Below, piece by piece: positions 1,585-35,073 of a DNA stretch of 47,541 nt (position 1 is the stretch's first letter; every line of letters starts with the position of its first letter). Position numbers and translations under genes: made by a program. A model generated the notes under the pieces. The model made no database searches. It worked only from the letters and a program-made list of their open reading frames with translations, and was not told where the DNA came from. The DNA comes from Nioella sp. MMSF_3534 (lineage in GTDB: Bacteria > Pseudomonadota > Alphaproteobacteria > Rhodobacterales > Rhodobacteraceae): assembly GCF_030732985.1 (NCBI RefSeq), contig NZ_JASHJX010000037.1, forward strand, positions 1 through 47,541, written 5' to 3'.

Positions 1585-4500
1585 TCGGTGATCACCACAT
1601 GGCCCGATGCCGTCTGAGCGCGGAAGGCGGGTCGGTACATGTCCTCGACCGAGGCCGCCGGGTGGTGGAAGCTGCCGGGCGTCACCGCGCGCACGATATA
1701 GGCCAGCCGCATCAGGTCACCGCGCCGGTGTGTGACGGCGGCAAGGAACCTCTCCTGCCGGAACTCCGTATGATCGGTGAAGTCGGTCACATCCAGATCG
1801 CTGAGCGTGCCGATATCGCCCGCGCGCAGCAGGTTGGGATTGTCGATCTCGAAGCCCGCAGGCAACGGGTCGTTCACCATCAGCCGCGCGGTGCGGTCGG
1901 TGAACCCGAGAACATGCAGCACCACGACCAGCCGTGTGCCGACATTGACCTCGGAGGGATCGGCAGGTACGCCATCGAGCGTCATGTAGCTGCGCGTGAT
2001 GCGGTAGCCGTTGCCGCCCTCTTCCGTCGCGCCCTCTGCCTGACCGTAGCGGGTCAGCGTCAGGGTCTCCTCCCGGTCGCCGGTATTGGTGAGGGTTCGC
2101 GTGGTCGGATCGCCCGCTTCCAGCACTTCGATGAGGGGGCCATCCACGGCGGCACCATTCAACGTCAGCGACGACAACCCGTCCATGTCGATCAGCGCAT
2201 CTGCGGCCAGCAGGCTCCACACCGCTTCCTGGGTAGAGACATTGGCACTGGGCGCGGGCAGGGCGGCAGCGAGCGCATCAAGCGGAATGGCCTGCGACCC
2301 GGCCCCGGCGGCCAGCGTCAGCAGCGCGGTGGCGTCGCGGCGGCGTGTGCCGAAATCGGCCCGCCAGCCGGTGGTTTCAGACGCAAGGCTTTGCGTCAGC
2401 AGCAGTTGATAGCCCTGCCGGAACATGGCATCGGCGCGTGGCTGATCCCCATACATCGCCAGCGCCGCGCCCAACTGGCCAAGCGCCAGCGGGGTGGCAA
2501 AGGCATCGGCCTTCACATCGGCATAGTAGCGCAGGTCACCAATCGCTGCCGCGCCCTCGCGGGCCAGAACCATCAGCGAATAGGCGATGGATTCGCCCCC
2601 TTCCTCGAAATCGGCGGCGGTGGCGACATGATTGCGCAACGCGTCCAGCGCCGATTGGAAGGCGAGGTCGGGCACCGCATAGCCCTCCGCCCGTGCGCGC
2701 GACAGGAAGTCGGTGACATAGGCATCAAGCCACGGATCGCCGGAATAGGCCCCCCAGAGGCCAAAGCCGCCATTGGCGGCCTGATTGACCAGCACCGCGT
2801 CAATGGCCTGCTGGATGCGGATCGACAGATCATCCGCATGGGCAAGGTCCAGCGCCTCGGCCACATCGGCCATGTAGAGCAGCGGCATCGCCTGGCTGGT
2901 GACCTGTTCGGTGCAGCCATAGGGGTAGCGGTCGAGCATCTGCAAAAGCCCCGGCGCGTCAAACCGGGCAAGGGGACCGGCGGAGAGCGTTGCCCGGCCA
3001 GTGCCGGGACGCAGGCCCGCCAGCACGGTTGCGTCAAAGTCGAGGCTGTCACCGGGGGCAAGCGTAAACCGAGAGGTCACGGCGGTGACCGGATCGTTCG
3101 ATTGCACCACCAGCCGCAAGGTCCGCGACAGCCGCTGGCCGTCCGGCGTGATCAGGGTGACGTCCACCTGCTGTTCACCAAGCTCTTCCAACGCAAATAG
3201 CGGCACGCGCAGGCGTTCGGTCTCGCCTTCCTCCAACGTCACGGCGGAAAGGATGGAGCCGATGTTCAGCCCCGCAGAGGTCTCGATTTCAATGGGCATC
3301 AGCCCGGTAGGCCCTTCCGCATGGGTCACTTCCAGCAGCAGCCGCGCATTGTCGCCCGGTGCCATGAAGCGCGGCATGGAGGCGGTGACAACCACCGGGT
3401 CACGCACCAGAACATCGGCCTCGGCCTGTCCGATACCCGCCTCATTCCACGCAACCGCCATCACCCGAACGGTGCCGTTGAAGCTGGGAATGTCGAAACG
3501 GACACGCGCCAGCCCGTCCTCATCCACCGTGACGGGACCGGAATGGAAGGCAACCAGCGCCTCGGTCGGGGGTGGGGCCTGCATGCGGGCACCGGCACTG
3601 GCATCGCCCCCTTGCCGGATCGCGCCGGGGTCACCCCCTCCGGAAATCAGCCGCCCATAGAGGTCTCGGATACCAACGCCAAGACGCCGCTGACCGAAGA
3701 AATGCCCCATCGGGTCGGGCGACTGGAAGCCGGTCAGGTTCAGGATACCCAGATCGACCGCGGCGATGCTGGCGTAGATTGTGTCGCCCGGTTCGGCATT
3801 ACCAACGCGCAGGACAACCTCCATCGGGCCACGGGGGGCGGAGGTGATCGGGGCTTCCATCACCACATCCAGCGCGCGGGGGCCGGGATTGACGGTGGCA
3901 TGCACCAGCCCGAGCGAGCGGGCGGGCATCTGCGCGGGCAACCCCTCCAACGGGCGCAGGAGCGTCGCGGTCACGTAAGCGCCATTGCCCCATTCCTCTG
4001 TCACCGCCAGCGGGAACGTGTCGGGGTCATCGCCGATGGTCACAAGTTCCTGATGGATCAGCCGGTTCGACATGACCCGGATCAGGACCAGTCCGCCGGA
4101 CCGGGGCACCACGCGCAACCGCGCCTCGTCGCCCACGTCATAGCTTTCAGCATCGAGCGAGACCTCCAGCAGATCGGGCGTACCCACGTCATCGCCCCCG
4201 CCATACCACCCGGCGCGGAAGCTGACGGAGCTGGCCGTATAGCGGCCCTCGGTACTTTCCACGCGAAGTTCATAGCGCCCCCAATCGGCGGGGGTGGAGA
4301 TTGCCACCGGGTCAGTGCCAAGCACGGCCTCGCCATTGGCAATACGGGTACGGGTTGTCACCGGTTCCCAGTTCCAGCGCCCGTTCTGCGTGTACCATTG
4401 ATAGCGCCGTTCGACCCGGTTCAGCGTCCAGCGCACCGGCTGCGCCTCGGCCCCGACGGCGATCAGGTGAAACTGGGCATCCGTGCCTTCGGGCAGGGTG

Positions 4501-6998
4501 CCGTCAAAGAGCGGGCGAATACCAATGAGCGTGCCCGAGGGGTCGAGGGGCCGTGTGATCTGTCGTTCCACCGGGCGACCGGAGCCTTCGGTGACGCGGG
4601 CGGTCACGCTCATCGTCCAGGGATGCGGCAGGCCGTCGAGCTCTGGCAAGGACAACTCGATCCGGGCCGCGCCGGTGGCATCTGTTCTTTGGCCATCCGG
4701 CAGGCTGTAGCGAATTCGGTCGGGGCGGTCGTCAAATCGGCCAAAGCGGTATCCGGGGAAGGCCTCCAGCGTTGCGACCGGGCGCAGGATCCACTCTCCC
4801 TCAATCGGCAATTCACCTGCGGGGGCCCCAAAGAGGTAGTCGGCCTGAAGGTCCAGCACAGCGGGCCGGTCGAGGGGTTGCGAGCCTTCGGGCAGGGACA
4901 GCTCCACGTCGATCCGTTCCGGCAGGAAATCCTCGACCAGCAGGGTTTGGCTGGCCAGGGGCTGCGCGTCGGGGTCTGCATGGACGGCCAGCCGCCAGGT
5001 GCCGCGCGGCACATTCGCGCCCAGGGGCATCTGCCAGACGAAGCCGCCCGCGCCGGTTTCCTCAAGCACTATGCGGCTGTATTCGACACCATCGGCGCGG
5101 GTCAGAATGGCCGTCAGCGGCAAGCCGGGCAGCGCGCGGGATTGCCCGTCGCGTGCCAAGGCGGTGGCGTGGATGGTTTCCCCCGCCCGATAAGCGCCGC
5201 GTTCGGTGGTCAGGAACAGGTCAATCGGCGGCGCGGCGGGGCGGCCCTCGACCCCACGGTCAGAGAGGTCGAACTCCGCTTCACGCAGCGACAGGAAGGC
5301 GAAATCGCCCTCCTGTTCCACGGTGATCATGGCGGGCGATGCCCCGGCGCGGCCTGCGGTCAGATCGGCGGGGAAATGCACCCGGCCCTGACGGTCGCTT
5401 TCCAGTTCGGCCAGCACCCGGTTCGACTCGGATACAAGACGCACGGTGGCCCCCTCGATGCCGGACGTATCGGCCAGAGACCGCACGATCACATTGACCC
5501 CATTGGTGCCGGAGACAGCGGAAAGCCCAAGGTCAGAGACGAAAAACCACTGCGTCGCCGGGGGCAGGTCGCGCCCTTCAGGGCCGTCGATCCGGGCCTC
5601 CAGCGCATAGAGACCGGGGGCAAGCGTGGCCAGAACCTCGCCCATGGGCAGGCTGGTCGTCACGTCCTCGTTCAGCCGGTTCGAGACCTCTCCGACACCT
5701 TCCCAGACGGTTTCGGCCAGTTCGGTGGAAAAGCGATTCACCTCCCACTGGTTCAGGGGCCGCCCGAAATAGTCGTCCTGCAGGCTGCGCACGATATTGC
5801 GGTCGGTCACGGAATAGAGCCGCAATGCCACCTCGTCGGTATTCACGGTCACAATGGGCAGCGCGCCGCCCGCAAGGCGTGGCAGCACATAGGCGCGCCC
5901 CGGGAACCGCAAGGTGGGGGAGCGGTCGCGCACGTAAAGGCGCAGGGTGGCCGGGCTGTGCAGGGTTTCACCCGAGGCGGCGGGCAGGCCAGCGCGCAGG
6001 GTGAACTCATAGCGCTGCCCATGCTGGACGCCCGAGATGCAGAACTGCCGGTTCTCGGCCTCGACCGACAGGCCGCTGACCGTGGTTTGCAGGAAATCCG
6101 CATGGGTGACACCGCCTGCGATATCTTCCGAGAAGATGGCGCAGATGCGCGGTTCGGCGGCGTCGTTTTCCACTCGGGTCGTGGTCACGCGGAAGCCGTA
6201 GAGCCCGATGGCGCGTTCAAGCTCTGCTTCCAGCGCCTCTGACGGGGCCTCAGCAATCGCAAGTCGCAGCGCGAAGATCATGCTGCGGCCCCGGCTGTTT
6301 TCTTCCAATGCGCGGGCCAGCAGGGCGGCGGCGTCAGACAGTTGTTGTCCGGGTGCGGCCCGCAAGATGGCATTGGTGGCCGCTGTCAGGGCGGTGCGAT
6401 TGAGGTTGCGCTGTTCGGTCCGGCTGGGCACTTCGATCTCCAGCGCCAGACGCGCATATTCCATCCAATGGGCAGGGTCGTCTGTCACGGTGATGGCAGA
6501 GCCATAGAGCCGCATGGCCTGCTGGAACTCCCCCTCTTCCAGCCGCGCTTCGGCGGCGGCGAGAATACGCTCTGCCGTCCAGGTGCCGGCATAGTGGCGG
6601 CGGGGCAGCCCTTCGGCCTCGATACGCGCCCTGGACAGATCAGTCGCATTCAGGAAATCCAGTTGCTCCAGCCGGTCCTCCAGCCGCGCCAGAACTGCCG
6701 GATCGGTGTCGCGCACCGTGGCGGACATGGCCCCGTCATAGGATTCCATCGCAAGGACATCGGTCTTGGGAAAACAGCTGCCATTGCGTTCGTTGAAGGT
6801 GAAGGCGGCACAATCCGAATCTGCCAGACACGCCCGGATGCACCCGATCAGCGATGTGTCATAGATCGGTGTCAGGTCTGCACCGGGAAAATCCGTGTCC
6901 TGGGTGATTGCATAGAACCGCTCGGCCACGGGCCCGTCCTGGGCGGTGGCCACAAGGGGCAGCAAGGACATCAAACCAGCCACGATCAACGTGCGCAT
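1581..6998 (-). CDS. Bacterial alpha-2-macroglobulin with N-terminal PAN/apple domain
   Basis: Large periplasmic protease trap of 1805 residues. The ATG at 6998 is chosen because GGAGG lies 7-8 bases upstream and it begins a good signal peptide (MRTLIVAGLMSLLPLVATAQ). The open frame continues upstream to 7922, but that part lacks a signal and overlaps the divergent kinase gene. Residues about 28-85 look like a PAN/apple module (several Cys, CAAFTFN). MG-type beta domains follow, with the bacterial thioester motif GCTEQ (Cys about 1362; bases 2904-2915) and an alpha-helical complement-like domain after it. The thioester Cys and Gln are both intact, so covalent trapping of attacking proteases should be possible. 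E. coli YfhM is a lipoprotein; here the signal ends in ATAQ with no lipobox Cys, so it is probably soluble in the periplasm. It overlaps pbpC by 4 bases. Confidence 0.93.
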   Translation of the reverse strand: MRTLIVAGLMSLLPLVATAQDGPVAERFYAITQDTDFPGADLTPIYDTSLIGCIRACLADSDCAAFTFNERNGSCFPKTDVLAMESYDGAMSATVRDTDPAVLARLEDRLEQLDFLNATDLSRARIEAEGLPRRHYAGTWTAERILAAAEARLEEGEFQQAMRLYGSAITVTDDPAHWMEYARLALEIEVPSRTEQRNLNRTALTAATNAILRAAPGQQLSDAAALLARALEENSRGRSMIFALRLAIAEAPSEALEAELERAIGLYGFRVTTTRVENDAAEPRICAIFSEDIAGGVTHADFLQTTVSGLSVEAENRQFCISGVQHGQRYEFTLRAGLPAASGETLHSPATLRLYVRDRSPTLRFPGRAYVLPRLAGGALPIVTVNTDEVALRLYSVTDRNIVRSLQDDYFGRPLNQWEVNRFSTELAETVWEGVGEVSNRLNEDVTTSLPMGEVLATLAPGLYALEARIDGPEGRDLPPATQWFFVSDLGLSAVSGTNGVNVIVRSLADTSGIEGATVRLVSESNRVLAELESDRQGRVHFPADLTAGRAGASPAMITVEQEGDFAFLSLREAEFDLSDRGVEGRPAAPPIDLFLTTERGAYRAGETIHATALARDGQSRALPGLPLTAILTRADGVEYSRIVLEETGAGGFVWQMPLGANVPRGTWRLAVHADPDAQPLASQTLLVEDFLPERIDVELSLPEGSQPLDRPAVLDLQADYLFGAPAGELPIEGEWILRPVATLEAFPGYRFGRFDDRPDRIRYSLPDGQRTDATGAARIELSLPELDGLPHPWTMSVTARVTEGSGRPVERQITRPLDPSGTLIGIRPLFDGTLPEGTDAQFHLIAVGAEAQPVRWTLNRVERRYQWYTQNGRWNWEPVTTRTRIANGEAVLGTDPVAISTPADWGRYELRVESTEGRYTASSVSFRAGWYGGGDDVGTPDLLEVSLDAESYDVGDEARLRVVPRSGGLVLIRVMSNRLIHQELVTIGDDPDTFPLAVTEEWGNGAYVTATLLRPLEGLPAQMPARSLGLVHATVNPGPRALDVVMEAPITSAPRGPMEVVLRVGNAEPGDTIYASIAAVDLGILNLTGFQSPDPMGHFFGQRRLGVGIRDLYGRLISGGGDPGAIRQGGDASAGARMQAPPPTEALVAFHSGPVTVDEDGLARVRFDIPSFNGTVRVMAVAWNEAGIGQAEADVLVRDPVVVTASMPRFMAPGDNARLLLEVTHAEGPTGLMPIEIETSAGLNIGSILSAVTLEEGETERLRVPLFALEELGEQQVDVTLITPDGQRLSRTLRLVVQSNDPVTAVTSRFTLAPGDSLDFDATVLAGLRPGTGRATLSAGPLARFDAPGLLQMLDRYPYGCTEQVTSQAMPLLYMADVAEALDLAHADDLSIRIQQAIDAVLVNQAANGGFGLWGAYSGDPWLDAYVTDFLSRARAEGYAVPDLAFQSALDALRNHVATAADFEEGGESIAYSLMVLAREGAAAIGDLRYYADVKADAFATPLALGQLGAALAMYGDQPRADAMFRQGYQLLLTQSLASETTGWRADFGTRRRDATALLTLAAGAGSQAIPLDALAAALPAPSANVSTQEAVWSLLAADALIDMDGLSSLTLNGAAVDGPLIEVLEAGDPTTRTLTNTGDREETLTLTRYGQAEGATEEGGNGYRITRSYMTLDGVPADPSEVNVGTRLVVVLHVLGFTDRTARLMVNDPLPAGFEIDNPNLLRAGDIGTLSDLDVTDFTDHTEFRQERFLAAVTHRRGDLMRLAYIVRAVTPGSFHHPAASVEDMYRPAFRAQTASGHVVITE

Positions 6999-7145
6999 GG
7001 GCACCTCCGGTATCAAAAATCGTATCAATAAATAGCTTTGCCTCATGCTGCCACGACCAGCCCCCCGGAGTCCATGCCGCGACACCGGTCTTAAGCCGAT
7101 GGAAAGGAAACCGGCGTCATTCTGCCGGTCGGAGAATGGATTCGG

Positions 7146-9287
7146 GTGAGACAGGGCATGGATGGCACCGGCTTCGATGATCGTTTGGCGCGCGAACGCC
7201 GGGCGCGGCTGGCGGCTGAACGGCTGCTGGTTCAGAAGCAGGAGGAACTGTTCGCCGCAAACCGCAAGCTGGCCCAACAGGCGGACCGTCTGTCGGATCA
7301 GGTGATCGAGCAGCGGGAGGAAAACGCCGAACTGGTCGGCGAAACAACCCGCGCGCGGGCCGATCTGGAAGTGGCGACAGAAAAGGCCGAACGCGCCGAA
7401 CGGCGGCTGTGGGATTCTCTCGATATCATCGAGGACGGCTTTGCGATCTATGACCGATCCGGCCGGCTGGTTGCGGCCAACAGTGCTTTTCTCAATATCT
7501 TTGAGGGTATGGTCGAGGTTGGGCCGGGGGCCAGCTACGATTCCATCCTGCGGATTGCCGTGGACGAAGGGCTGGTCGATCTGGAAGGCGTGCATCCCGA
7601 CGATTGGGTCGATGACATGACCGCCCGGTGGGAACAGGACCCGATCCCGCAGCGCACGGTCAAGCTGTGGAACGGTGGCTTCGTCAAGCTGGTGGACAAG
7701 CGCGCGCCCGATGGCGACATGGTCAGCCTGATGCTGAACATCACCGAAACGATCCGGCGGGAACGGGACCTGCGCGATGCCCGCGATCAGGCGGAGGCCG
7801 CGAACCGGGCCAAGTCGGCCTTCCTTGCCAATATGAGCCACGAGATCAGGACGCCGATGAATGGGGTCGTGGCCATGGCAGACCTGCTGCGGGAAACCGA
7901 TCTGGACGAGGATCAGCGCCAATGCGCCGACACGATCCGCAATTCCGGCGAGGCATTGCTGGAGATCATCAACGATGTGCTCGATTTTTCAAAGATCGAG
8001 GCGGACAAGCTGGTGCTGCATGCCGAGGCCTTCGATCTGGAGGATCTGATCCGCGAGATCTTCCGCCTGCTGCGCCCGTCCATTCAGGGCCGAGATCTGC
8101 AATTGCTGCTGGATTACGATATCTTCCTGCCTCAATCGCTTGTGGGCGACCGGGGCCGGGTGCGGCAAGTGCTGACCAACCTGATCGGGAATGCCGTCAA
8201 GTTCACAGACCGGGGCCATGTGCTTGTGCGCGTCATGGGCGAACCGGTGGAAAACGGTCAGGTCACGCTGGTGATCGCGGTGGAAGATACCGGCATCGGC
8301 ATCGCGGCCGACAAACAGGCGCATGTGTTCGGGGAATTCAACCAGGTCGAGGATCAGGCGAACCGCAAGTATGAAGGCACCGGGCTGGGGCTGGCGATCA
8401 CCCACAAGCTGGTGCGCATGATGGGCGGCGATATCTGGATCGACTCGGAGCTTGGGCAGGGAGCAACCTTCGCGTTCCGACTGACCCTGCCTGTGGCGGA
8501 CGGCGAAGTTCCCTGCCCGGTGCAGCCATTGCCCGCAGAGCTGACCAAGGTTGTGCTGGTCGGCCCGGAAAGTGGCGCGCGGCGGCTGGTGGAACGCCAG
8601 TTCCTGAAGCTCAAGGCGGATGTGCGGGCGGTGGACGAGGTGGCAGGCATCGGGGGCAGGCCGGACCTCGTGGTCCTGACGGAAGAGGTCGGGGAAGAGC
8701 CGCTGGAAACCCCTGCCTTCCCCGTCCTGCGATGCCTCTCGGATCGTCGGGCCAACCCCGCGGCCCCGATTCCCGAAATCACGCTGGAAGCCCCCTTGCG
8801 CGATTTCCGGCAAGCGTTGATGGAAAAGGTGGCGCTTGTCACGCGACCAGTGCCTCCGCAGGATGCCCCGCCTGCGGACGCTCCAGGAAAGCTGCGCCTG
8901 CTGGCGGCGGAGGATAACAAGACCAACCAGATGATCTTTCGCAAGATGATCAAGGCGCTCGATCTTGAGCTGGAGCTTGCGAATAATGGTCAGGAGGCAT
9001 GGGAGGCCTACCGGGCGGAACGGCCCGACCTGCTGTTCACCGATATCTCCATGCCCGAGATGGACGGGCTGGAACTGACCCGCCGGATCCGTGCGGATGA
9101 GGAGGCGAAGGGCCTGCCGAGATTGCCGATTGTCGCGATGACTGCCCATGCGATGGAGGATCACGAAGCGGAGATCGTGGCGGCGGGGGTGGATCACTAC
9201 CTGACAAAACCACTGAAGAAGGCCGAGATCATCAGTAGGCTGGAGGCATTGAAACCGGGGGGTGTATTGCCGCTGATGCAGGAATAG
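7146..9287 (+). CDS. Soluble PAS hybrid sensor histidine kinase with C-terminal receiver
   Basis: 713 residues from a GTG at 7146; an in-frame ATG at 7158 (MDGTGFDD) is an equally possible start, and neither has a strong ribosome site. In order: a charged coiled coil (about 12-90), a PAS domain (about 90-190, SLDIIEDGFAIYDRSGRL), HisKA with phospho-acceptor His232 in FLANMSHEIRTPMNG, and HATPase_c with N-box (NLIGNAVKF), DTGIGI and GTGLGL. A degenerate segment follows, then a C-terminal REC domain (about 580-710) with Asp633 in FTDISMPEMDG and a KPL lysine. There is no membrane segment, so it should sense a cytoplasmic signal. No HPt or partner regulator is nearby; the neighbour is the divergent A2M gene, 147 bases away. 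Function of the phosphorelay is unknown. Confidence 0.9.
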   Translation: MRQGMDGTGFDDRLARERRARLAAERLLVQKQEELFAANRKLAQQADRLSDQVIEQREENAELVGETTRARADLEVATEKAERAERRLWDSLDIIEDGFAIYDRSGRLVAANSAFLNIFEGMVEVGPGASYDSILRIAVDEGLVDLEGVHPDDWVDDMTARWEQDPIPQRTVKLWNGGFVKLVDKRAPDGDMVSLMLNITETIRRERDLRDARDQAEAANRAKSAFLANMSHEIRTPMNGVVAMADLLRETDLDEDQRQCADTIRNSGEALLEIINDVLDFSKIEADKLVLHAEAFDLEDLIREIFRLLRPSIQGRDLQLLLDYDIFLPQSLVGDRGRVRQVLTNLIGNAVKFTDRGHVLVRVMGEPVENGQVTLVIAVEDTGIGIAADKQAHVFGEFNQVEDQANRKYEGTGLGLAITHKLVRMMGGDIWIDSELGQGATFAFRLTLPVADGEVPCPVQPLPAELTKVVLVGPESGARRLVERQFLKLKADVRAVDEVAGIGGRPDLVVLTEEVGEEPLETPAFPVLRCLSDRRANPAAPIPEITLEAPLRDFRQALMEKVALVTRPVPPQDAPPADAPGKLRLLAAEDNKTNQMIFRKMIKALDLELELANNGQEAWEAYRAERPDLLFTDISMPEMDGLELTRRIRADEEAKGLPRLPIVAMTAHAMEDHEAEIVAAGVDHYLTKPLKKAEIISRLEALKPGGVLPLMQE

Positions 9288-24813: not shown

Positions 24814-25533
24814 ATGTTGGAACTTGTCTTTGCCTATGGCGCGGGTCTTCTGACCCTGATCAACCCTTGCGTTCTGCCGGTGCTGCCCATTGTGCTGGCG
24901 GGCTCGTTGCAGGCCAGCCGGTTCGGCCCGCTGGCGCTGGCGGGGGGGATGAGCCTGTCTTTCGTGGCGCTCGGCCTGACTGTCGCATTGGCCGGAAGAG
25001 CCGTTGGCATTGATGAACAAGCCATAGGGCAGGCGGGCGCGGTTCTGATGATCGCCTTTGGCCTCGTCCTGCTGATCCCGCGCTTTTCCGCCGCCTTCGC
25101 CACCGCAACGGCGGGCGTGTCATCGGGTGCGGACAGCCAGATGTCCAGTTTGAATGGCCGCGACGGCTGGCAGGGGCAAGCGATTGGCGGTGCGCTGCTT
25201 GGCGCTGTCTGGTCGCCTTGTGTCGGCCCTACCCTTGGTGGCGCCATCGCGCTGGCCAGTGCTGGTGAACAAATTGGCCGCGCTGCAGCGATCATGGTGT
25301 TCTTTGCCCTTGGCGTGTCCACCATCATCCTCGCCCTCGGCTATGGCGCGCGGTCCTTCTTCCAGCGCCGCCGGGCGCTGATGCAGGCCATCGCCGAACG
25401 ATCCCACCCGCTGCTTGGCGGCATCTTCATCCTCGTCGGCACCGCGATCCTGCTGCGCTGGCACCACGCAATCGAAATCTGGCTGCTCGATGTCCTGCCC
25501 TATTGGCTGCAGGATCTCTCGGTGGCCCTGTAA
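24814..25533 (+). CDS. CcdA-family thiol:disulfide transporter
   Basis: 239 residues, six predicted membrane helices. The two conserved Cys sit in pseudo-symmetric motifs: INPCVLPVLP (Cys19) and WSPCVGPTLG (Cys136). CcdA proteins pass electrons from cytoplasmic thioredoxin to periplasmic thioredoxin-like partners for cytochrome c maturation or protein repair. Only 12 bases separate it from the exported thioredoxin gene, the expected partner. The assignment to the CcdA family is firm; whether it serves cytochrome c maturation or another pathway is open. Confidence 0.93.
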   Translation: MLELVFAYGAGLLTLINPCVLPVLPIVLAGSLQASRFGPLALAGGMSLSFVALGLTVALAGRAVGIDEQAIGQAGAVLMIAFGLVLLIPRFSAAFATATAGVSSGADSQMSSLNGRDGWQGQAIGGALLGAVWSPCVGPTLGGAIALASAGEQIGRAAAIMVFFALGVSTIILALGYGARSFFQRRRALMQAIAERSHPLLGGIFILVGTAILLRWHHAIEIWLLDVLPYWLQDLSVAL

Positions 25534-25545
25534 GGGAGAAACCTG

Positions 25546-25944
25546 ATGAACCGACGCGAGCTATTGATCATGTCCGGGGCTACGCTGTTATTGGCGGGCC
25601 GTGCCGGGGCCAGCAATATCGACTATACGCCCGGCCTTGTGCAGCAGCGCCTTGCCGCCGGCGAAACGCTGTTCGTCGATTTCTTCGCCCCATGGTGCGG
25701 GACCTGCCGCACCCAGGAACGCCATGTCGAGGCGATCCGCGCCGAGAACCCCGCCTATGACGCGGCAATGAGCTTCATTCGCGTGGATTGGGATACCTAT
25801 GGGCGAGGCGAACTGGCCCAAAGCCTCGATATCCCGCGCCGGTCGACCCTGGTCGTGCTACGCGGCGACGCCGAACTGGGCCGCATCGTCGCCGGAACCA
25901 GCCGCTCGGCGATTCAGTCGCTGATGGATCTGGGGCTAAGCTGA
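25546..25944 (+). CDS. Exported thioredoxin-family protein
   Basis: 132 residues. The N-terminus MNRRELLIMSGATLLLAGRAGA has an Arg pair and a hydrophobic core, resembling a Tat signal. The mature domain is a thioredoxin fold with active site FFAPWCGTCRTQ (Cys51, Cys54) and a later IPRRSTLVVL segment. That segment has Ser where the cis-Pro is expected (RRST instead of xxPT), which may change redox behaviour. It is directly downstream of ccdA, so CcdA probably reduces it in the periplasm. Partner proteins are unknown. Confidence 0.9.
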   Translation: MNRRELLIMSGATLLLAGRAGASNIDYTPGLVQQRLAAGETLFVDFFAPWCGTCRTQERHVEAIRAENPAYDAAMSFIRVDWDTYGRGELAQSLDIPRRSTLVVLRGDAELGRIVAGTSRSAIQSLMDLGLS

Positions 25945-25950
25945 TCCGTC

Positions 25951-26658
25951 TCAGACGTCAGAGGGGTCGTTGGTCGATGTCACGGCGACATTGTCCACGG
26001 CCCAGCTTTCGTCATAGACACCCTGATTCAGGGTAGACCCGAAGCCGACACTCATCGACGGGCCGGGGTCGGTCACTTCCACCCGGACGGTAAAGCTCTG
26101 GTCGGACCAACTGGAACTATAGCCGATATGCCCACGGTCGCCGGACGGCTCTACCGTGACGTTGTAATTGCCATCCGAGGTTGTCCAGCTGCCCGTCACC
26201 CCGTCCGACTGCCAATTGAAATTGTGGGAACTGATCGGGTTGCCGTCCACGAACATGATGAATTCTTCATTGTCCCAGCTGTCGATGGCATGCAGGTCAA
26301 ACTCGATCACCGCAGCATCATAGCCCGACATCAGGTCATAGGTCCGGGTCACGATCTCGGCCCCGCCGCTGCCGCCATAGGGGCCCAGAAGCCCGCCATA
26401 GGCCGCGTCCGAGCCATCGGTCACGCCGCCGAACCAGAACCCTGCACCGTTCTCGAAATCGTCGAAATAGCTCTGCCGCGCAAAGCTGGAATTCACGATC
26501 TGCCCACGCAGGGTCGCGTCGATGTCACCAGCCAGGTTCTCGATGCCCGTGGACGTGGAGTTCAGCACCGCAATGCCGACGCCCACGACGCCCGCGCTCA
26601 GCACCACGTAATCCGTGGTCACCGCACCCGATTCCGATCTGAAAAACTCCTTCAGCAT
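25951..26658 (-). CDS. Flp-prepilin-like leader fused to a predicted beta-sandwich domain
   Basis: 235 residues, ATG at 26658 with GGAGAG 7 bases upstream. The N-terminus MLKEFFRSESG-AVTTDYVVLSAGVVGVGIAVL fits a Flp-type class IVb prepilin: a short basic leader, Gly11 at the cleavage site, acidic residue Asp16 and Tyr17 at positions +5/+6, then a hydrophobic helix. Normal Flp pilins end soon after (50-70 residues). Here about 170 residues follow that are rich in Gly, Ser, Asp and aromatics (SYFDDFENGAGFW, GGLLGPYGGSGG, ESWAVDNVAV), resembling jelly-roll or laminin-G-like modules. No tad/cpa or prepilin peptidase gene is in the window. Function unknown; surface adhesion is a guess. Confidence 0.75.
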   Translation of the reverse strand: MLKEFFRSESGAVTTDYVVLSAGVVGVGIAVLNSTSTGIENLAGDIDATLRGQIVNSSFARQSYFDDFENGAGFWFGGVTDGSDAAYGGLLGPYGGSGGAEIVTRTYDLMSGYDAAVIEFDLHAIDSWDNEEFIMFVDGNPISSHNFNWQSDGVTGSWTTSDGNYNVTVEPSGDRGHIGYSSSWSDQSFTVRVEVTDPGPSMSVGFGSTLNQGVYDESWAVDNVAVTSTNDPSDV

Positions 26659-26722: not shown

Positions 26723-26758
26723 GGGGCAAATTTAGCCGATCTGCCCCCGGTTTGCCCC
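26723..26758 (-). terminator. Hairpin spanning the aroC stop codon
   Basis: A perfect 8-bp inverted repeat GGGGCAAA / TTTGCCCC (26723-26730 and 26751-26758) encloses the last codons and the TAA of aroC. On the aroC strand it is followed by TAATTTCTCC, not a clear T run, so it may be a stability element rather than a full terminator. Confidence 0.4.
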
Positions 26759-27832
26759 AATCTGGCCACGATGCAGCAACACGTGATCCAGCAACACGCA
26801 AGCCGCCATCGCCTCGGCCACCGGAACCGCGCGAATGCCGACACAAGGATCATGGCGACCTTTTGTAATGATTTCAGTATCTTCACCAGATTTGGTGATG
26901 GTCTTGCGCGTCGTCAGAATCGACGAGGTCGGCTTGACTGAAAACCGCACCACCACATCCTGCCCGGTGGAGATGCCCCCCAGAATCCCACCCGCGTGAT
27001 TCGAGCTGTAAACCGGCCCCTCCGGCCCCATGCGAATCTCATCCGCATTCTCGCTGCCGGTCAGGCAGGCCGCGTTCATGCCCTCGCCGATCTCGACGCC
27101 CTTCACCGCGTTGATCGACATCATCGCAGCCGCCAGATCGGTGTCCAGCTTGCCATAGATCGGCGCACCAAGGCCCGCGGGCATCCCCCGCACCGTCACC
27201 TCGATCACCGCGCCGACGCTATCACCGGTCTTGCGCAGCCCGTCCAGATAGTCGGCCCACTCCGCCGCCGCCCCGGCATCGGGCGTCCAGAACGGATTGC
27301 GCTCGATCTCGTCCCAGTCGAACCGGTCCCGGTCGATTCCATGCGGCCCCATCTGCACCATGTAGCCGGTAATCGACAGCCCCGGCACCAGCTGCTTCAA
27401 CGCCTCGCGCGCCACACCGCCCGCCGCCACCCGCGCCGCCGTTTCCCGCGCACTGGACCGCCCGCCGCCGCGATAATCGCGGATGCCGTATTTCTGCCAA
27501 TAGGTGATATCCGCATGTCCGGGCCGGAACTTCTCGGCAATATCGCCGTAATCCTTCGACCGCTGATCGGTGTTACGGATCATCAGCTGGATGGGCGTAC
27601 CGGTGCTGACACCCTCGAAGACGCCTGACAGAACCTCCACCTGGTCTGGCTCGCGTCGCTGCGTGGTGAACTTGTTCTGCCCCGGTTTGCGCTTGTCCAG
27701 CCAGTGCTGCAACGCTTCCGCTTCAACCGGCACCCCCGGAGGGCAGCCATCCACCGTCGCGCCCAGCGCTGGCCCGTGGCTCTCGCCCCAGGTGGTGACT
27801 CGAAAAAGATGGCCAAAGCTGTTCATGGACAT
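26732..27832 (-). CDS. aroC: Chorismate synthase
   Basis: Makes chorismate from EPSP, the last shikimate step, with reduced FMN. 366 residues, the normal length. Signature segments: [18 protein letters not shown], the RPGHAD motif ([15 protein letters not shown]), [18 protein letters not shown], and the late [18 protein letters not shown]. It begins [16 protein letters not shown]; an internal ATG two codons later is also possible. The C-terminal tail ends in a small duplication ([12 protein letters not shown]). It is transcribed away from the flavin amine oxidase gene upstream, which ends 67 bases before it on the same strand. Confidence 0.97.
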
Positions 27833-27899
27833 GGGGGCGCTCCGTTTCCTCGCCCCCGGTTAGCGCGAGCGGCCCCGGAATCCAAGGCTCATATGGCCG

Positions 27900-29117
27900 C
27901 TACAGCCCATAAGCCCGCTCCAGAACCGCCAGCGCCATATCAACCAACGCGTCATCATCCTGCCCCGCCAGCTCCCGCGCCGCATCGGCCCCGTTGAACC
28001 CCAACAGGATCGGCTCGCCCAGAACAGGCATCAGGTTGAGCCATTGGTTGAACTGCCCGCGCGGCAGCCCGGTATCGGCGGTCACGATCCAGGTCGGATC
28101 GCCCTCCCAGAACGGCGCGTCGAATTGCAGGTAGAGCTTGTCCAGCACCCCCATGCCAAGCGATGCAATGGCCTCTTGCTTGGTGTTCGGCAAGGGCGGG
28201 TCAAAGACAATCCGCCCAGCCTGCAAGACACCCAGGGGCACGGTGACAACAACCGCATCGTGCCGCGCCTCCCTGCCATCGGCAAACCCCAGCCGGATGC
28301 CCCCGCCCAGCGTCACCCGCTGAAGGACATGGCCGGTCAGCAGCGCGTAATCCCCGGCCAGTTCCGGCACCAGCCGGTCATATCCCTCGGCTATGACCGC
28401 CTCTGCGCCGCCATAATCGGTCGGGGCGCGAAACGCGGCAAGGTTGATCTGGTCCCGCCGTGCCCCGGCATTGTGCTGGATCGAGATGACCTCCTCCAGC
28501 CAGTCCGGCACCTCCTCCGCGTCCAGCATTGCCCCGCCGCTCAGCCGAAAGACGATCTCGCCATCGGTCTCGACCAATGTCGCGCCAGCATCCTCCGCCA
28601 GACCGACAAGCGGATTGTCCTCCATCCCGTGAATCCAGCTCGCCCCAAGGTCCAGCGGCACCCCGAGGCTGCGGTCCGTCCATAGCCGCCCGCCAATCCG
28701 GTCGCGCGCCTCGTAGATCGTCACGTCATAGTCCAGCTCGGCAAGCATCTGCGCCGTGCGCAGCCCGGCAATGCCCGCCCCGATCACGGCAATATCCCCG
28801 AGATCCTCTTCCTCGATGGCCTCGACCGCATGGCCCGCCGATTCATAGGCCGCGTGAACGGTGCTGCCGTAATCCGGGTTTGCGGCCTCTCCGGCAAAAA
28901 AGATCCGTCCCGCCACCGGTGCCGCCAGCCTGCGATGCGCGGCGCGAAACAGCCCGCGCGGTGTGTAGGAATAAGACCCGAAGCAGAACGGATCGCGGCT
29001 CCAGTTCGTCCGCAGATAGCCGGTCAGCCGCGCTCCGCTGGCCATCCCCCGATCCACCGGCAGAAACGTCCCGGCGACGCCCGCCGCAACCGCTGTCAAT
29101 ACGTCGCGCCTCTGCAT
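27900..29117 (-). CDS. Circularly permuted flavin amine oxidase, Tat-exported
   Basis: 405 residues. Residues 1-28 (MQRRDVLTAVAAGVAGTFLP) look like a Tat signal. Residues about 30-103 carry what is normally the C-terminal segment of the MAO/LSD1/polyamine oxidase family: LRTNWSRDPFCFGSYSY, then GRIFFAGEAANPDYGSTVH. Only after this comes the normal N-terminal dinucleotide-binding loop IAVIGAGIAGLRTAQML (about 109-125), with YEARDRIGGRLWT and DLGASWIHG. The rest follows in normal order (VVVTVPLGVLQAGRIVFDPP) and stops at ALAVLERAYGL, where ordinary members run into the RW-x-DPF-x-x-GSYSY part. All FAD-contacting motifs are present once, in permuted order, in a single uninterrupted frame. Substrate unknown, possibly a primary or polyamine. 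Confidence 0.88.
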   Translation of the reverse strand: MQRRDVLTAVAAGVAGTFLPVDRGMASGARLTGYLRTNWSRDPFCFGSYSYTPRGLFRAAHRRLAAPVAGRIFFAGEAANPDYGSTVHAAYESAGHAVEAIEEEDLGDIAVIGAGIAGLRTAQMLAELDYDVTIYEARDRIGGRLWTDRSLGVPLDLGASWIHGMEDNPLVGLAEDAGATLVETDGEIVFRLSGGAMLDAEEVPDWLEEVISIQHNAGARRDQINLAAFRAPTDYGGAEAVIAEGYDRLVPELAGDYALLTGHVLQRVTLGGGIRLGFADGREARHDAVVVTVPLGVLQAGRIVFDPPLPNTKQEAIASLGMGVLDKLYLQFDAPFWEGDPTWIVTADTGLPRGQFNQWLNLMPVLGEPILLGFNGADAARELAGQDDDALVDMALAVLERAYGL

Positions 29118-29183
29118 GCCACCCCCTAACTACCGGCTCGCTGAAAGTCTGCGTTACCCCCGTGGCTTGCGCAAGACGGCCCC

Positions 29184-29356
29184 TTCATCTTGGCCCAAAT
29201 ACCTCCGCCGGAGGCATCACGACATTTCGGTCGGCACCCGATCAGACTTGCGAAACACCCCATCCGATTTTCCGTGGCAACGCGGCCCGAGGAGGGCTCC
29301 GAAGGAGCCTGACGAGGGCCGCTCCCCGGTCGACGCGCCCCAGCGCGGCGAAACCG
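29184..29356 (-). repeat. Dispersed 3'-element, full copy B
   Basis: Module 1 (29184-29218) contains CCTCCGCCGGAGG beside a TTGGCCCAAATA run; module 2 (29270-29356) runs from TTCCGTGGCAACGCGG to GGCGAAACCG. Read on the minus strand it lies downstream of dxs in the same order as the other full copies: module 2 first, module 1 second. Module 2 is the most diverged of the three copies in its middle. Confidence 0.65.
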
Positions 29357-29374
29357 CTTTCCGTATGCACGCCC

Positions 29375-29407
29375 GGTGTACGGGGGGTGTACAGGGGGTG
29401 TACGGGT
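29375..29407. repeat. Three tandem 11-bp repeats
   Basis: GGTGTAC starts at 29375, 29386 and 29397, an exact 11-bp period, with G-rich spacers (unit GGTGTAC-R-GGG). They lie just downstream of dxs. Too short and too few for a CRISPR array. Confidence 0.75.
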
Positions 29408-29429
29408 GGCCCCCCCCTTTTTCAGGCCC

Positions 29430-31355
29430 TCACGCCTGTCGACTCAATCGCGCCACGCCAAGCACATCGAGCACCTTCGCTTCGATATGTTCGGCATTCA
29501 TCGCTGCCGTGGCGTACATATCCTCAGGGCTCGCCTGGTCGATGAAACTATCGGGCAGAACCATGGACCGAAACTTCAGCCCACGGTCGAAAACGCCCTC
29601 TTCGGCCAGCAACTGCGCCACATGGCTGCCAAAGCCGCCAATCGCGCCTTCCTCGATGGTGATTAACGCTTCGTGGTCGGCGGCAAGCTTCAGAATAAGC
29701 TCGGAATCCAACGGCTTGGCGAAACGCGCATCGGCAATCGTCGGCGTGATCCCGCGCGCAGCCAGTGCCTCGGCGGCTTTTTGAACCTCGCTCAGCCGGG
29801 TCCCAAAAGACAGGATCGCGACCCGCGCGCCCTCCTGGATCATCCGGCCCTTGCCAATCTCCAGCGGCTCGCCGCGCTCCGGCATATCCACGCCCACGCC
29901 TTCGCCCCGCGGATAGCGGAAGGCGATCGGCCCGCTGTCATGCGCCACGGCGGTTGCCACCATATGCACCAACTCCGCCTCATCGGCTGCAGCCATCACC
30001 ACGAAACCGGGCAAATTCGACAGGTACGCCACGTCGAAAGATCCCGCATGCGTCGCTCCGTCCGCACCCACTAACCCCGCGCGATCAATAGCAAATCTGA
30101 CGGGCAGGCGCTGGATGGCCACATCGTGAACGACCTGGTCATAGCCCCGTTGCAGGAAGGTCGAATAGATCGTGCAGAAGGGTTTCATCCCCCCCGCCGC
30201 CATGCCAGCACAGAAGGTCACCGCGTGCTGTTCAGCGATGCCCACGTCAAACACCCGCTTCGGAAACCGCTCTCCGAACAGGTCCAGCCCCGTCCCGTCC
30301 GGCATCGCGGCGGTGACTGCAACGATCTTGTCGTCCAGCTCCGCCTCGCGGATCAGGCTTTGGGCGAAGACCTTGGTGTAACTCGGCGCATTCGAGGGCG
30401 CCTTGCGCTGCTCTCCGGTCACCATGTCAAAGGGCGCGCGGGCATGGCCCCGGTCGGCATGCCCCTCCGCATGGCGAAAGCCTTTGCCCTTCTTCGTGAT
30501 CGCATGGATCAGGATCGGCCCGTCGGCGCGCGCCTTCACGGTGCGCAGAACGGAGACCAACTGATCCATGTCATGCCCGTCAATGGGGCCGACATAGGAA
30601 AAGCCCAGTTCCTCGAACAAAGTCCCGCCCACGGTGGCCGCTTTCAGCAGCTCTTTCGCCCGCCGCGCGCCTTCCTGGAAGGGTTCGGGCAGCAGCGACA
30701 CCGCGCCCTTGGCGGCCGATTTCAGCTCCTGGAACGGGGCCCCGGCATAGAGCCGCGACAGGTAGGAGGACAGCGCGCCGGTCGGGGGCGCAATGCTCAT
30801 CTCATTGTCATTCAGGATCACGATCAGCCGCTTGCCCAGATGACCGGCATTGTTCAGCGCCTCGAAGGCCATGCCCCCGGTCAGCGCGCCATCCCCGATC
30901 ACGGCAATCGCATCGCCAAGCCCGGTCTCGATCACGCCGCCAAGCTCACGCGCCATCGCAAAGCCCAATGCCGCCGAAATCGAGGTGGAGCTATGCGCGG
31001 CACCGAACGGGTCATAGGGCGACTCGCTGCGCTTGGTGAAGCCCGACAGGCCCCCCTTCTTGCGCAGGGTCGGCATCGCCTCGCGCCGCCCGGTCAGGAT
31101 TTTGTGGGGGTAACACTGGTGGCTGACGTCCCAGATCACCTTGTCGCGCGGCGTATCGAACACCGCATGCAGCGCGACGGTCAGTTCCACCACCCCAAGC
31201 CCCGCACCCAGGTGCCCGCCGGTCTGGCTGACGGCGGCGATGGTTTCGGTGCGCAGGTCGTCGGCCACGCGGCGCAGATCAGACACCGGCAGCCCGCGCA
31301 GATCGGCCGGGGAATGGATCCGGTCCAGATGCGGCGTGTCGGGGCGGTCGCTCAT
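29430..31355 (-). CDS. dxs: 1-deoxy-D-xylulose-5-phosphate synthase
   Basis: Thiamine-diphosphate enzyme that condenses pyruvate and glyceraldehyde 3-phosphate, the first and often flux-controlling step of the MEP pathway. 641 residues, standard. The transketolase-type N-domain has [18 protein letters not shown] and the TPP motif [16 protein letters not shown]...NDNEMSI. The pyrimidine-binding domain has [25 protein letters not shown] and [15 protein letters not shown]. It sits last in a run with xseB and ispA, so precursors and prenyl diphosphates are made from one transcript. The gap to ispA is 18 bases. Confidence 0.98.
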
Positions 31356-32243: not shown

Positions 32244-32489
32244 TCAGAGCCCCTCGACCGGCTTTGCCCCCGTGGGTTCCCCGTTGGCATCGAGCGTGAT
32301 CTGCGCGACCTTTTCCTCGGCCTCCTTCAGCTTGGCCTCGCACCGGGCTTTCAGCTGCGCGCCGCGTTCGTAAAGCTTGATCGAATCTTCCAGCGCCACG
32401 TCACCCCGGTCGAGCTGACCGACCACGGTTTCCAGTTCCCGGATTGCTTCCTCGAAGCTCATTTCCTCGATCTTTTTCTGGTCGCTCAT
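32244..32489 (-). CDS. xseB: Exodeoxyribonuclease VII small subunit
   Basis: 81 residues. The signature MSFEEAIRELETVVGQLDRGDVALEDSIKLYERG is present and ends with the charged ARCEAKLKEAEEKV helix. It partners XseA (not in the window) in a nuclease that degrades single-stranded DNA. Its ATG overlaps the stop of the first histone-deacetylase gene (ATGA), and ispA follows after 3 bases. Confidence 0.96.
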   Translation of the reverse strand: MSDQKKIEEMSFEEAIRELETVVGQLDRGDVALEDSIKLYERGAQLKARCEAKLKEAEEKVAQITLDANGEPTGAKPVEGL

Positions 32490-33424
32490 CCGCTTCTCTC
32501 CGTCAAAACGCGCACATGGGTGGCAGCCGAGGCCGCAAGGGCGGTGAGATCATAGCCGCCTTCGAGAGTCGAGACCATGCGGCCGCCGCAATGCCTGTCA
32601 GCGATATCGCAAAGCCGCTGCGTGAGCCACTCGTAATCCTCCTCGACCCATGCGAGATCGGACAAGGGGTCGGCGGCATGGCAGTCGAATCCCGCCGAGA
32701 TCAGCAGCAGGTCGGGGCGAAACGCCTCCAGCCTCGGGAAGACGCGCGCTTCATAGGCTTCGCGCATCGCCTTGCCGCCGGTGCCGGGGGCGAGCGGCAC
32801 GTTGACCACGTTGTCATGCGCGCCGGTCTCTGACACGTCGCCGGTATCGGGCCAGAGCGGCATTTGCTGCGAGGTGATCACCAAAGCGCGGGGGTCGTCC
32901 CACAGCAGGGCCTGTGTGCCATTGCCGTGATGCACGTCGAAATCGACGATGGCCACGCGGGCAAGCCCGTGATGATCCAGCGCGTATTTCGCGCCAAGCG
33001 CCACGTTGCCGAAGAAACAGAACCCCATGGGCAGTTCCTGTTCGGCATGGTGGCCCGGCGGGCGCACCGCGGCGAAGGCGTTGGTCAGTTCGCCGGATAG
33101 AACTAGGTCGATAGCCTTTTGAACCCCGCCAACGGCGCGGTAAAGCGCGGGCAGGGACGACGGGGACAGGAAGGTTTCCTCATCCGTGTCCGGGTCCATC
33201 ATGGTGAAGCCTTCATCGGGAACACTGGCGCGGATGTGGTCGAGATAGGCAGGCGTGTGCAGCGTCAGGATGCTGTCATCACTAGCCAACGGGGCGGCGT
33301 AGCGGAAGAGCGGCAGCCCTTCGAGCGCCCGCAACACAAGCGCCAGCCGGGCGGGCTGTTCATGGACATGGGCGGGCGTCACATGCGCGAGGCAATCGGG
33401 ATGTGTGACAAGCCCGGTGGCCAC
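32486..33424 (-). CDS. Histone deacetylase family protein (paralogue 1)
   Basis: 312 residues from a GTG at 33424, immediately after the TAG of paralogue 2. Arginase/deacetylase fold with the metal and catalytic residues in place: RPPGHHAEQE (His-His), VDFDVHHGNGTQ (Asp and His ligands), SAGFDCHAADPL (Asp ligand) and the late EGGYD tyrosine. Bacterial members act on acetylated small amines such as acetylpolyamines or on acetyl-lysine; the substrate here is not known. It is about half identical to the next gene by eye. It overlaps xseB by 4 bases. Confidence 0.93.
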   Translation of the reverse strand: MATGLVTHPDCLAHVTPAHVHEQPARLALVLRALEGLPLFRYAAPLASDDSILTLHTPAYLDHIRASVPDEGFTMMDPDTDEETFLSPSSLPALYRAVGGVQKAIDLVLSGELTNAFAAVRPPGHHAEQELPMGFCFFGNVALGAKYALDHHGLARVAIVDFDVHHGNGTQALLWDDPRALVITSQQMPLWPDTGDVSETGAHDNVVNVPLAPGTGGKAMREAYEARVFPRLEAFRPDLLLISAGFDCHAADPLSDLAWVEEDYEWLTQRLCDIADRHCGGRMVSTLEGGYDLTALAASAATHVRVLTERSG

Positions 33425-34351
33425 CTATGCCCCCATCAGTTCGGTCACATGGGCGGCAACGGACTCCGCCAGTGCGTCGAGGTTGTAGCCGCCTTCCATC
33501 GACGACACGAGCCGCCCGCCGCAGACGTCATCCGCGACGGCGCAAAGCTCGCGCGTGAGCCATGCGAAATCCTCGGTCGTCCAGTTGAGATTGGCCAGCG
33601 GATCGTCGGCATGGGCATCGAACCCGGCGGAGAGGATGATCAGCTCCGGCTGGTAGTCGCGCAGCCGCTGGAACAGGCGCGAGCCGTAGATGGAGCGCAT
33701 GGTGTCCCCGTCGGACCCCGGCGAAAGCGGCACGTTCAAGATATTGCCATGCGCGCCGCGTTCATGGGCGGCACCCGTGCCGGGATAAAGCGGCATCTGG
33801 TGGGAGGAGATGAAAAGAACGCGGGACTCATCCCACAAAAGATCCTGTGTGCCGTTGCCATGGTGCACGTCGAAATCGACGATAGCGACGCGGGCAAGAC
33901 CGTGCCGGTCCAGCGCATGTTTTGCGGCGATGGCGACATTGCCGAACATGCAAAACCCCATGGCGCGGGTCTTTTCGGCGTGATGGCCCGGGGGCCTCGT
34001 GGCGACGAAGGCGTTTTTCGCCTCACCTGCAAGCACCGCATCGACGGCGGCAAGGCAGCCGCCGACGCCGCGCAGGGCGGCCTCCCACGTGGCGGGCGAC
34101 ATGGAGGTATCGGGGTCGAGCGCGACCAGCCCGTCCTGCGGCGCGGCCTCTCGGATCGCGGTGACATGGCTTTCGGGATGGGCGAGCAGCAGGTCGGCCT
34201 CTTCCGCCATGGGGGCCTCTCGCCGGTCGAGCGCGGCAAATTCGGGCGCGGACAGCGCGCGGATCACGTGTTTCAGCCGCGCGATCTGTTCCGGGTGGCC
34301 AAGCGGCATCTGGTGGCGCAGGCCCGCGTCATTCGTGAAAAGCAGGGTCAT
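33425..34351 (-). CDS. Histone deacetylase family protein (paralogue 2)
   Basis: 308 residues from the ATG at 34351; an upstream in-frame stretch overlaps petR and is discarded. The same active-site set as paralogue 1 is kept: RPPGHHAEKTRAMGF, VDFDVHHGNGTQDLLW, SAGFDAHADDPL and EGGYNLD. It is in tandem with paralogue 1 with no spacer (TAG then GTG). It begins 8 bases after petR, so it is likely in the same transcript. Tandem retention with intact sites suggests different substrates rather than simple redundancy. Confidence 0.93.
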   Translation of the reverse strand: MTLLFTNDAGLRHQMPLGHPEQIARLKHVIRALSAPEFAALDRREAPMAEEADLLLAHPESHVTAIREAAPQDGLVALDPDTSMSPATWEAALRGVGGCLAAVDAVLAGEAKNAFVATRPPGHHAEKTRAMGFCMFGNVAIAAKHALDRHGLARVAIVDFDVHHGNGTQDLLWDESRVLFISSHQMPLYPGTGAAHERGAHGNILNVPLSPGSDGDTMRSIYGSRLFQRLRDYQPELIILSAGFDAHADDPLANLNWTTEDFAWLTRELCAVADDVCGGRLVSSMEGGYNLDALAESVAAHVTELMGA

Positions 34352-34359
34352 GGATATCC

Positions 34360-35073
34360 TCAGTCGGGGGCCAGCATGTAGCCCGCGCCGCGCACCGTTT
34401 GCAGGTAGCGCGGCTGTTTCGGGTCGGCCTCTATCTTGCGGCGCAGGCGGGTGATCTGCACATCGACGGCGCGTTCCTGGCTGGTGGTGCTGCCCACGCC
34501 CTTGTCGCGGCCCAGATCCTCGACCAGCTGTGTGCGGCTGACGGGTTCGTTCGGACAGGCAGAGAAGATGCGCATCAGCGCAGACTCGGTTGCGGTCAGG
34601 CGAATGGGGGTTTGCCCCTGCCACATTTCACCCCGTTCAAGGTCGTATCGGATCGGCCCCAGATGCAGCATCTTGGGGGCCGATTGCGTTTCGGACACGC
34701 TTGGAACGCGCCGCAGGATGGCGTTGATCCGCAGCAGCAATTCGCGCGGCTCGAACGGTTTCGGCAGGTAGTCATCGGCCCCGGCTTCCAGCCCGGTGAT
34801 CCGGTCGCTGGCCTCGCCCCTCGCCGTGAGCAGCATGATCGGGGTCGTCAGCTTTTCGCGCAAAGCCTTGGTCAGGCTGATCCCGTCTTCGCCGGGCATC
34901 ATCACATCCAGCACGATCAGGTCGAATTCCAAGCCTTCCAGCAGCCGGCGCGCATGGGCCGCATCACGGGCGGCACTGACGATGAAGCCGTTGCGAATCA
35001 GGAACTTCTGGAGAAGACCGCGAATGCGCTCATCATCGTCGACGATCAGAAGATGGGCTGCCGGATCTGTCAT
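34360..35073 (-). CDS. petR: OmpR-family response regulator (PetR)
   Basis: 237 residues. The N-terminal receiver has the acidic pocket VDDDE, phosphorylated Asp56 in VLDVMMPGEDG, and the Lys of LPKPF. The C-terminal winged helix (about 135-235) has LTATESALMRIFSACPNEPVSRTQL and the wing VRGAGYML. It matches PetR, first described upstream of the cytochrome bc1 operon in Rhodobacter capsulatus and needed for growth there. No cognate kinase or bc1 gene is here. Its ATG overlaps the petP stop (ATGA). Target genes in this organism are unknown. Confidence 0.88.
   Translation of the reverse strand: MTDPAAHLLIVDDDERIRGLLQKFLIRNGFIVSAARDAAHARRLLEGLEFDLIVLDVMMPGEDGISLTKALREKLTTPIMLLTARGEASDRITGLEAGADDYLPKPFEPRELLLRINAILRRVPSVSETQSAPKMLHLGPIRYDLERGEMWQGQTPIRLTATESALMRIFSACPNEPVSRTQLVEDLGRDKGVGSTTSQERAVDVQITRLRRKIEADPKQPRYLQTVRGAGYMLAPD

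Follow-up and report, generated by a model that had tools for sequence, protein, structure and literature searches.

The window, by which we mean the whole 47,541-nucleotide stretch that was analysed, carries on its minus strand a flavin amine oxidase gene whose parts stand in an unusual order (Table 1). The frame, uninterrupted as the original prediction had it, runs over 405 aa from an ATG start. Its neighbors are dxs (29430-31355) on one side and a gene that we take to be aroC (26732-27832) on the other; the three genes share the minus strand and are separated by intergenic gaps of 312 and 67 bases. Its composition matches that of its neighbors (GC3 0.79), and a simple scan of 27700-29600 found no sigma-70-like promoter. 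The gap on the dxs side holds an 11-base repeat (GGTGTACGGGG, 2.9 copies) at 29375-29406. Neighboring genes at the loci compared below were called by a simple script.

The gene is present in three of six genomes of the window's genus. Around aroC in three members that do not have it (G002, G004, and G005), aroC retains its other neighbors, and neither dxs nor a permuted amine oxidase was found within the 9-12 kb searched. A tblastn search of the same stretches with this protein (E 1e-8) gave no match, and replacement at the same locus by a gene of ordinary order was not seen there. Other genes of the window include a 235 aa protein with no Pfam match (25951-26658, minus strand), which is 68-74% identical to proteins that three further genomes of this genus encode next to aroC. 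The genes for a DsbD/CcdA-like membrane protein and, after it, a thioredoxin-like protein that starts with an RR motif (24814-25944, plus strand) are likewise found beside aroC in G002, G004, and G012. The histone-deacetylase family (PF00850), which includes acetylpolyamine amidohydrolases, has two members side by side at 32486-33424 and 33425-34624 on the minus strand. A bacterial alpha-2-macroglobulin of 2113 aa with a PAN_4 stretch is encoded at 1581-7922 (minus strand).

Table 1. Parts of the permuted amine oxidase gene, in window coordinates.
Feature	Coordinates	Strand	Basis
Circularly permuted FAD amine oxidase, whole gene, 405 aa	27900..29117	-	Pfam and profile match
Twin-arginine (RRDVL) leader and hydrophobic stretch, residues 1-28	29034..29117	-	Sequence; RR motif in permA leaders
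Former C-terminal segment, residues 30-102 (W39, GSYSY 47-51, FAGEAA 74-79)	28812..29030	-	Match to profile 338-409
New junction, former C-terminus to first Rossmann strand, residues 103-107	28797..28811	-	Profile and segment comparison
FAD-binding Rossmann part, residues 108-202 (GAGIAG 113-118, E136, GGR 142-144)	28512..28796	-	Match to profile 2-98
Eight residues, 203-210, replacing profile positions 99-141	28488..28511	-	Profile match
Residues 211-404, profile 142-332; the chain stops where the C-terminal segment would start	27906..28487	-	Profile match
K327, conserved lysine in LDKLYLQF, putatively near flavin N5	28137..28139	-	Alignment position; role as given in PMC12224317

Pfam assigns the protein to the Amino_oxidase family (PF01593; E 3e-57) in three stretches, with a whole-protein score of 195.3 bits against a gathering score of 19.8. 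The protein has the hallmark GxGxxG, the acidic end of strand 2, and the GGR motif. The usual order of the family, with the Rossmann part first and the GEA segment last, is absent and is rotated instead. The substrate domain is incomplete, with profile positions 99-141, which we take to belong to this domain, left unmatched. Judged from its sequence, the protein belongs to PF01593 by homology, not by topology. A normal-order profile of 413 positions, built from 43 rows of normal order, of which 38 are distinct, matches the whole protein with an E-value of 1.8e-99. It does so in three stretches that follow each other as end, start, and middle (Table 1), which bears out the reversed order described in the original prediction. 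No part is duplicated. The FAD motif, GGR, the catalytic lysine, W..DP..GSYS, and FAGEA each occur a single time, again as described, with RR at residues 3-4 and IGAGIAG at 112-118. The best solved chains in a PDB search are LSD2 and spermine oxidase, and along the LSD2 chain the query pieces run 108-183, 234-401, and 32-94. The order is more than chance because three separate stretches hit the normal-order profile and the same three pieces hit LSD2. Rotation of the protein brings about 227 bits into one domain, compared to 147 bits unrotated. The scan is flat across many cut points and thus does not place the cut.

In all, 32 permuted proteins from 32 genomes were read. We call those with a twin-arginine leader permA (21 proteins, including the window protein) and the two groups without a leader permG (nine) and permH (two). 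A circular permutant contains all parts of its family once and becomes colinear with it once rotated, and this is what we found. Each of the nine rotated permG proteins forms a single domain spanning profile positions 2-409 or 2-410, and all 18 rotated permA proteins give two pieces in the correct order with a shortened part between them. A true permutation, as originally proposed, is therefore upheld. An artefact of assembly or frame can practically be dismissed: independent assemblies give an identical order of parts in the 32 proteins of 32 genomes, and nothing was found in its favor. We did not find a solved structure of the permuted kind among the 60 entries listed out of 368 PDB sequences matching a profile of the junction. 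All 60 are hit in two stretches, and the two alignments viewed are of normal order.

Genome samples were drawn evenly within one phylum, and other phyla were covered by a pattern scan of close relatives and by plasmid records, in which the one match examined (Synechocystis) is of normal order. A permuted homolog with an RR leader, matching the permuted profile at E ≤ 1e-40, occurs in 14 of the 394 genomes (window included) of the window's own family, f1, presumably the Rhodobacteraceae, with four candidates scored per genome. The protein of L048, counted among these 14, is without its C-terminal part. Matches in the class sample (4/385) are the window, the permuted L061 and L062, and the normal-order L063; those in the phylum sample (10/398) are two permA, two permG, and six normal-order proteins. 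Family f16 has four matches in 17 genomes, all permuted. Three of four named matches are permuted, at 96% in Nioella sediminis, 92% in Nioella ostreopsis, and 53% in a Rhodophyticola MAG; the remaining one, at 40% in a proteobacterial MAG, is of normal order. The family in which permG is found has matches in 13 of 119 genomes (nine permG, two permH, and two normal), and the class of G901 in 4/284, one permuted and three normal. The very divergent permH, a third group of permuted flavin amine oxidases, was found in two of the 37 genomes of its genus (L084, frame 1444-2736 on the plus strand, and L085). Judged by eye, permH keeps GGR and has GEY in place of GEA.

The gene is under purifying selection. 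Overall dN/dS values among three Nioella sequences are 0.246, 0.295, and 0.293, and those of residues 30-104 are 0.065, 0.054, and 0. Across 28 proteins (19 permA and nine permG), W39, D42, G47, Y49, AGEA (75-78), H88, the GxGxxG glycines, E136, R138, GGR, and K327 are all invariant; Y83 is replaced in 17 of the 28. The original prediction was silent on a further peculiarity. The permA cores measure 370-379 residues versus 405-449 in the normal rows and, judging by the profile alignments, are shorter through loss in the substrate domain. In the 18 permA proteins other than that of the window, 28 to 59 profile positions between the two pieces are left unmatched; permG retains the part of the domain that permA has lost. 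The shortening could alter or abolish the usual substrate pocket. The protein might then be a permuted one that is degenerate or binds FAD without catalysis, its fold intact but its amine oxidation ended by the loss within the substrate domain. The unmatched profile positions 99-141 of the window protein, comparable unmatched stretches in the rest of permA, and the frequent replacement of Y83 would fit such a protein. We nevertheless consider it improbable, given that K327, W39, AGEA, GxGxxG, E136, and GGR are invariant in 28/28, that selection is purifying, and that permG still has the part lost in permA.

The leader that the original prediction described is a general feature of permA. RR is present by pattern in 19/19 leaders scanned, followed by a hydrophobic stretch as judged by eye, a motif that suggests export by the Tat pathway. 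Cleavage is perhaps after ...GMA. A crude pattern scan, with both false hits and misses, found RR and a hydrophobic stretch before 28 of the 43 normal rows and in 10 of the 15 normal rows nearest to the permuted ones in a 70-row tree. The leader thus probably predates the permutation. Directly behind it, six of 19 permA proteins carry a PxP motif like that of the old linker. In G657 (L155), two full-length normal-order genes stand head to tail on the plus strand (995-2242 and 2282-3526), with 75 bases between the matches. The age of the leader, the PxP remnants, and this tandem pair fit the duplication, fusion, and trimming model, as set out in PMC3320104. A normal-order gene that already bore the leader would have been duplicated in tandem, and the C-terminal end of the first copy would have been fused to the Rossmann start of the second. 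The remaining parts would then have been removed, with the leader kept or re-acquired. No partly duplicated intermediate gene was seen.

Whether this happened once or several times is evenly balanced in our judgment. In the 70-row tree (18 permA, nine permG, and 43 normal rows, 65 of all rows being different; L089 and L111 not included), permA forms one clade (98/97) and permG another (100/100), and the two are not joined. Support for permA is 99/98 in a tree with permH added and 100/98 in a tree with L089, a close normal-order row, and L111. Separate origins of permA, permG, and permH would explain why the groups stand apart on the free trees and why none of 200 bootstrap trees (70-row, smaller, permH-added, and L089-added trees) places all permuted rows on one side. 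In the tree with L089 and L111, the data weakly reject (AU p 0.032) a single clade that holds every permuted row, and permH is placed beside normal rows (90/94). However, in the same tree permA joined with permG is not rejected (AU p 0.108), and in the other samplings neither is a single permuted clade (AU p 0.292 in the 70-row tree, 0.325 in the smaller set, and 0.11 with permH added). PermG and permH are long branches, which limits the weight of these trees on the number of origins.

The cut and the length of the junction, which are nearly identical among the groups, speak against separate origins. With L048 left out, the chain ends at profile positions 328-332 in permA and 329-330 in permG, and the moved segment of both starts at 331-341, except in L051 (322). 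In permH, the chain ends at 321-322 and the moved segment starts from 341. The span that begins six residues ahead of W39 and runs to GGR measures 112 aa in 24 of 28 proteins (111, 113, 113, and 117 in the others), and the span from W to GxGxxG is three residues longer in permH. A GAR[RS] motif at the junction, in a count made after the pattern had been seen, occurs in 4/19 permA, 9/9 permG, and 0/43 normal rows, and also argues for a shared origin; it is absent from the permH junction. A tentative reading, to which we give slightly less than an even chance, is that the loop before the C-terminal segment is a hot spot for permutation. The rotation would then have happened independently two to three times, with one event in the exported line, which kept its leader and trimmed its substrate domain, and one or two events in lines without a leader.

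The neighborhoods of the permA genes were considered as a source of function, but no neighborhood is common to the permA loci and none names a substrate. The three Nioella loci share neighboring genes. L036 and L129 share four neighboring families, including Peptidase_S13 and a class I tRNA synthetase; L128 and L130 share radical SAM, Usp, COX1, and FixP genes; and L125 and L128 share genes for porphobilinogen deaminase and uroporphyrinogen decarboxylase. At L125, L128, and L130, the permuted gene is within a few kb of heme-synthesis or cbb3 oxidase genes. A Crp-family regulator is encoded 36 bases upstream of the permuted gene at L130. The gene at L120 adjoins glutamine-synthetase-like genes, among which a match to gamma-glutamylputrescine synthetase is below the cut-off. 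The permG neighborhoods gave no functional clue.

According to PMC12224317, many Tat-exported enzymes encoded beside a cytochrome c gene are dehydrogenases, most of the Tat-only enzymes tested are oxidases that react fast with O2, and in the flavin amine oxidase superfamily a lysine near flavin N5 aids the reaction with O2. None of 18 permA loci has an adjoining cytochrome c (CXXCH) gene, with frames of at least 90 aa considered and three of the loci near a contig end. The permA proteins might still be exported amine dehydrogenases that pass electrons not to O2 but to a cytochrome c encoded elsewhere. Their Tat leader, which they share with the dehydrogenases encoded beside cytochrome c genes (PMC12224317), would be in keeping with this, as would the CXXCH genes of the cbb3 cluster 3-4 kb from the permuted gene at L128 and L130; L118 has one CXXCH in a distant frame. 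The absence of an adjoining cytochrome c gene at all 18 loci and the fast reaction with O2 of most Tat-only enzymes tested (PMC12224317) make this rather unlikely, and together they favor, by inference, an exported oxidase.

The permA protein is probably an exported FAD amine oxidase of the MAO/LSD/polyamine oxidase family, circularly permuted by duplication, fusion, and trimming. Its former C-terminal segment of about 73 residues, predicted to contact FAD, now follows the export leader and precedes the Rossmann domain. The protein would fold around FAD in the cytoplasm and be exported through Tat as a holoenzyme. Oxidation of the amine would transfer a hydride to FAD, and the imine would be hydrolyzed. 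O2 is the likelier acceptor, because there is no adjoining cytochrome c gene, and would yield H2O2.

These proteins form a family of bacterial MAO relatives in which the last quarter of the chain now comes first while the export tag is kept, a rearranged order for a well-known enzyme fold. Annotation leaves the permuted protein unnamed, as no NCBIfam cut-off was reached among the 25 of 36 matches listed. Large cofactor enzymes that are permuted in nature make valuable test cases for folding and evolution. A segment that contacts the cofactor and stands at the front of an exported enzyme, behind a retained leader, is informative about FAD loading prior to transport by Tat. The relatives include drug targets (MAO and LSD1), and the permissive cut would serve as a guide in engineering. 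Repeated origin of the rotation at one loop, of which the last tree gives a weak hint, would reveal which cuts a large fold tolerates. We did not recognize a permuted flavin amine oxidase in the literature searched, which took in few subscription papers and preprints. A 1998 note by Murzin reportedly treats a flavin-binding domain as probably permuted.

Compared to the flavin amine oxidoreductases (PF01593; MAO, LSD1/LSD2, and polyamine/spermine oxidase), the window protein has all hallmark segments once, but in rotated order and with a shortened substrate domain. The top-scoring PDB entries, LSD2 and spermine oxidase among them (60 of 368 listed), differ from it in that the junction profile hits them as two stretches. 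Two normal-order proteins, L037 (proteobacterial MAG) and L063 (G734), are 46 and 40% identical to the rotated window protein. They are nearest to permA in the 70-row tree (81/70), a sister relation lost in the tree with L089. Unlike the window protein, both have the Rossmann part first, the C-terminal segment last, and a full substrate domain. The Tat-exported bacterial amine oxidases and dehydrogenases such as NicA2 and Pnao (PMC12224317) likewise are bacterial members of the FAD family with a twin-arginine leader, but the permuted genes have no cytochrome c gene beside them; the string "permut" occurs 0 times in the main text of that paper. In the natural permutants saposin/swaposin and the DNA methyltransferases, which have other folds, duplication, fusion, and trimming fits likewise, according to PMC3320104.
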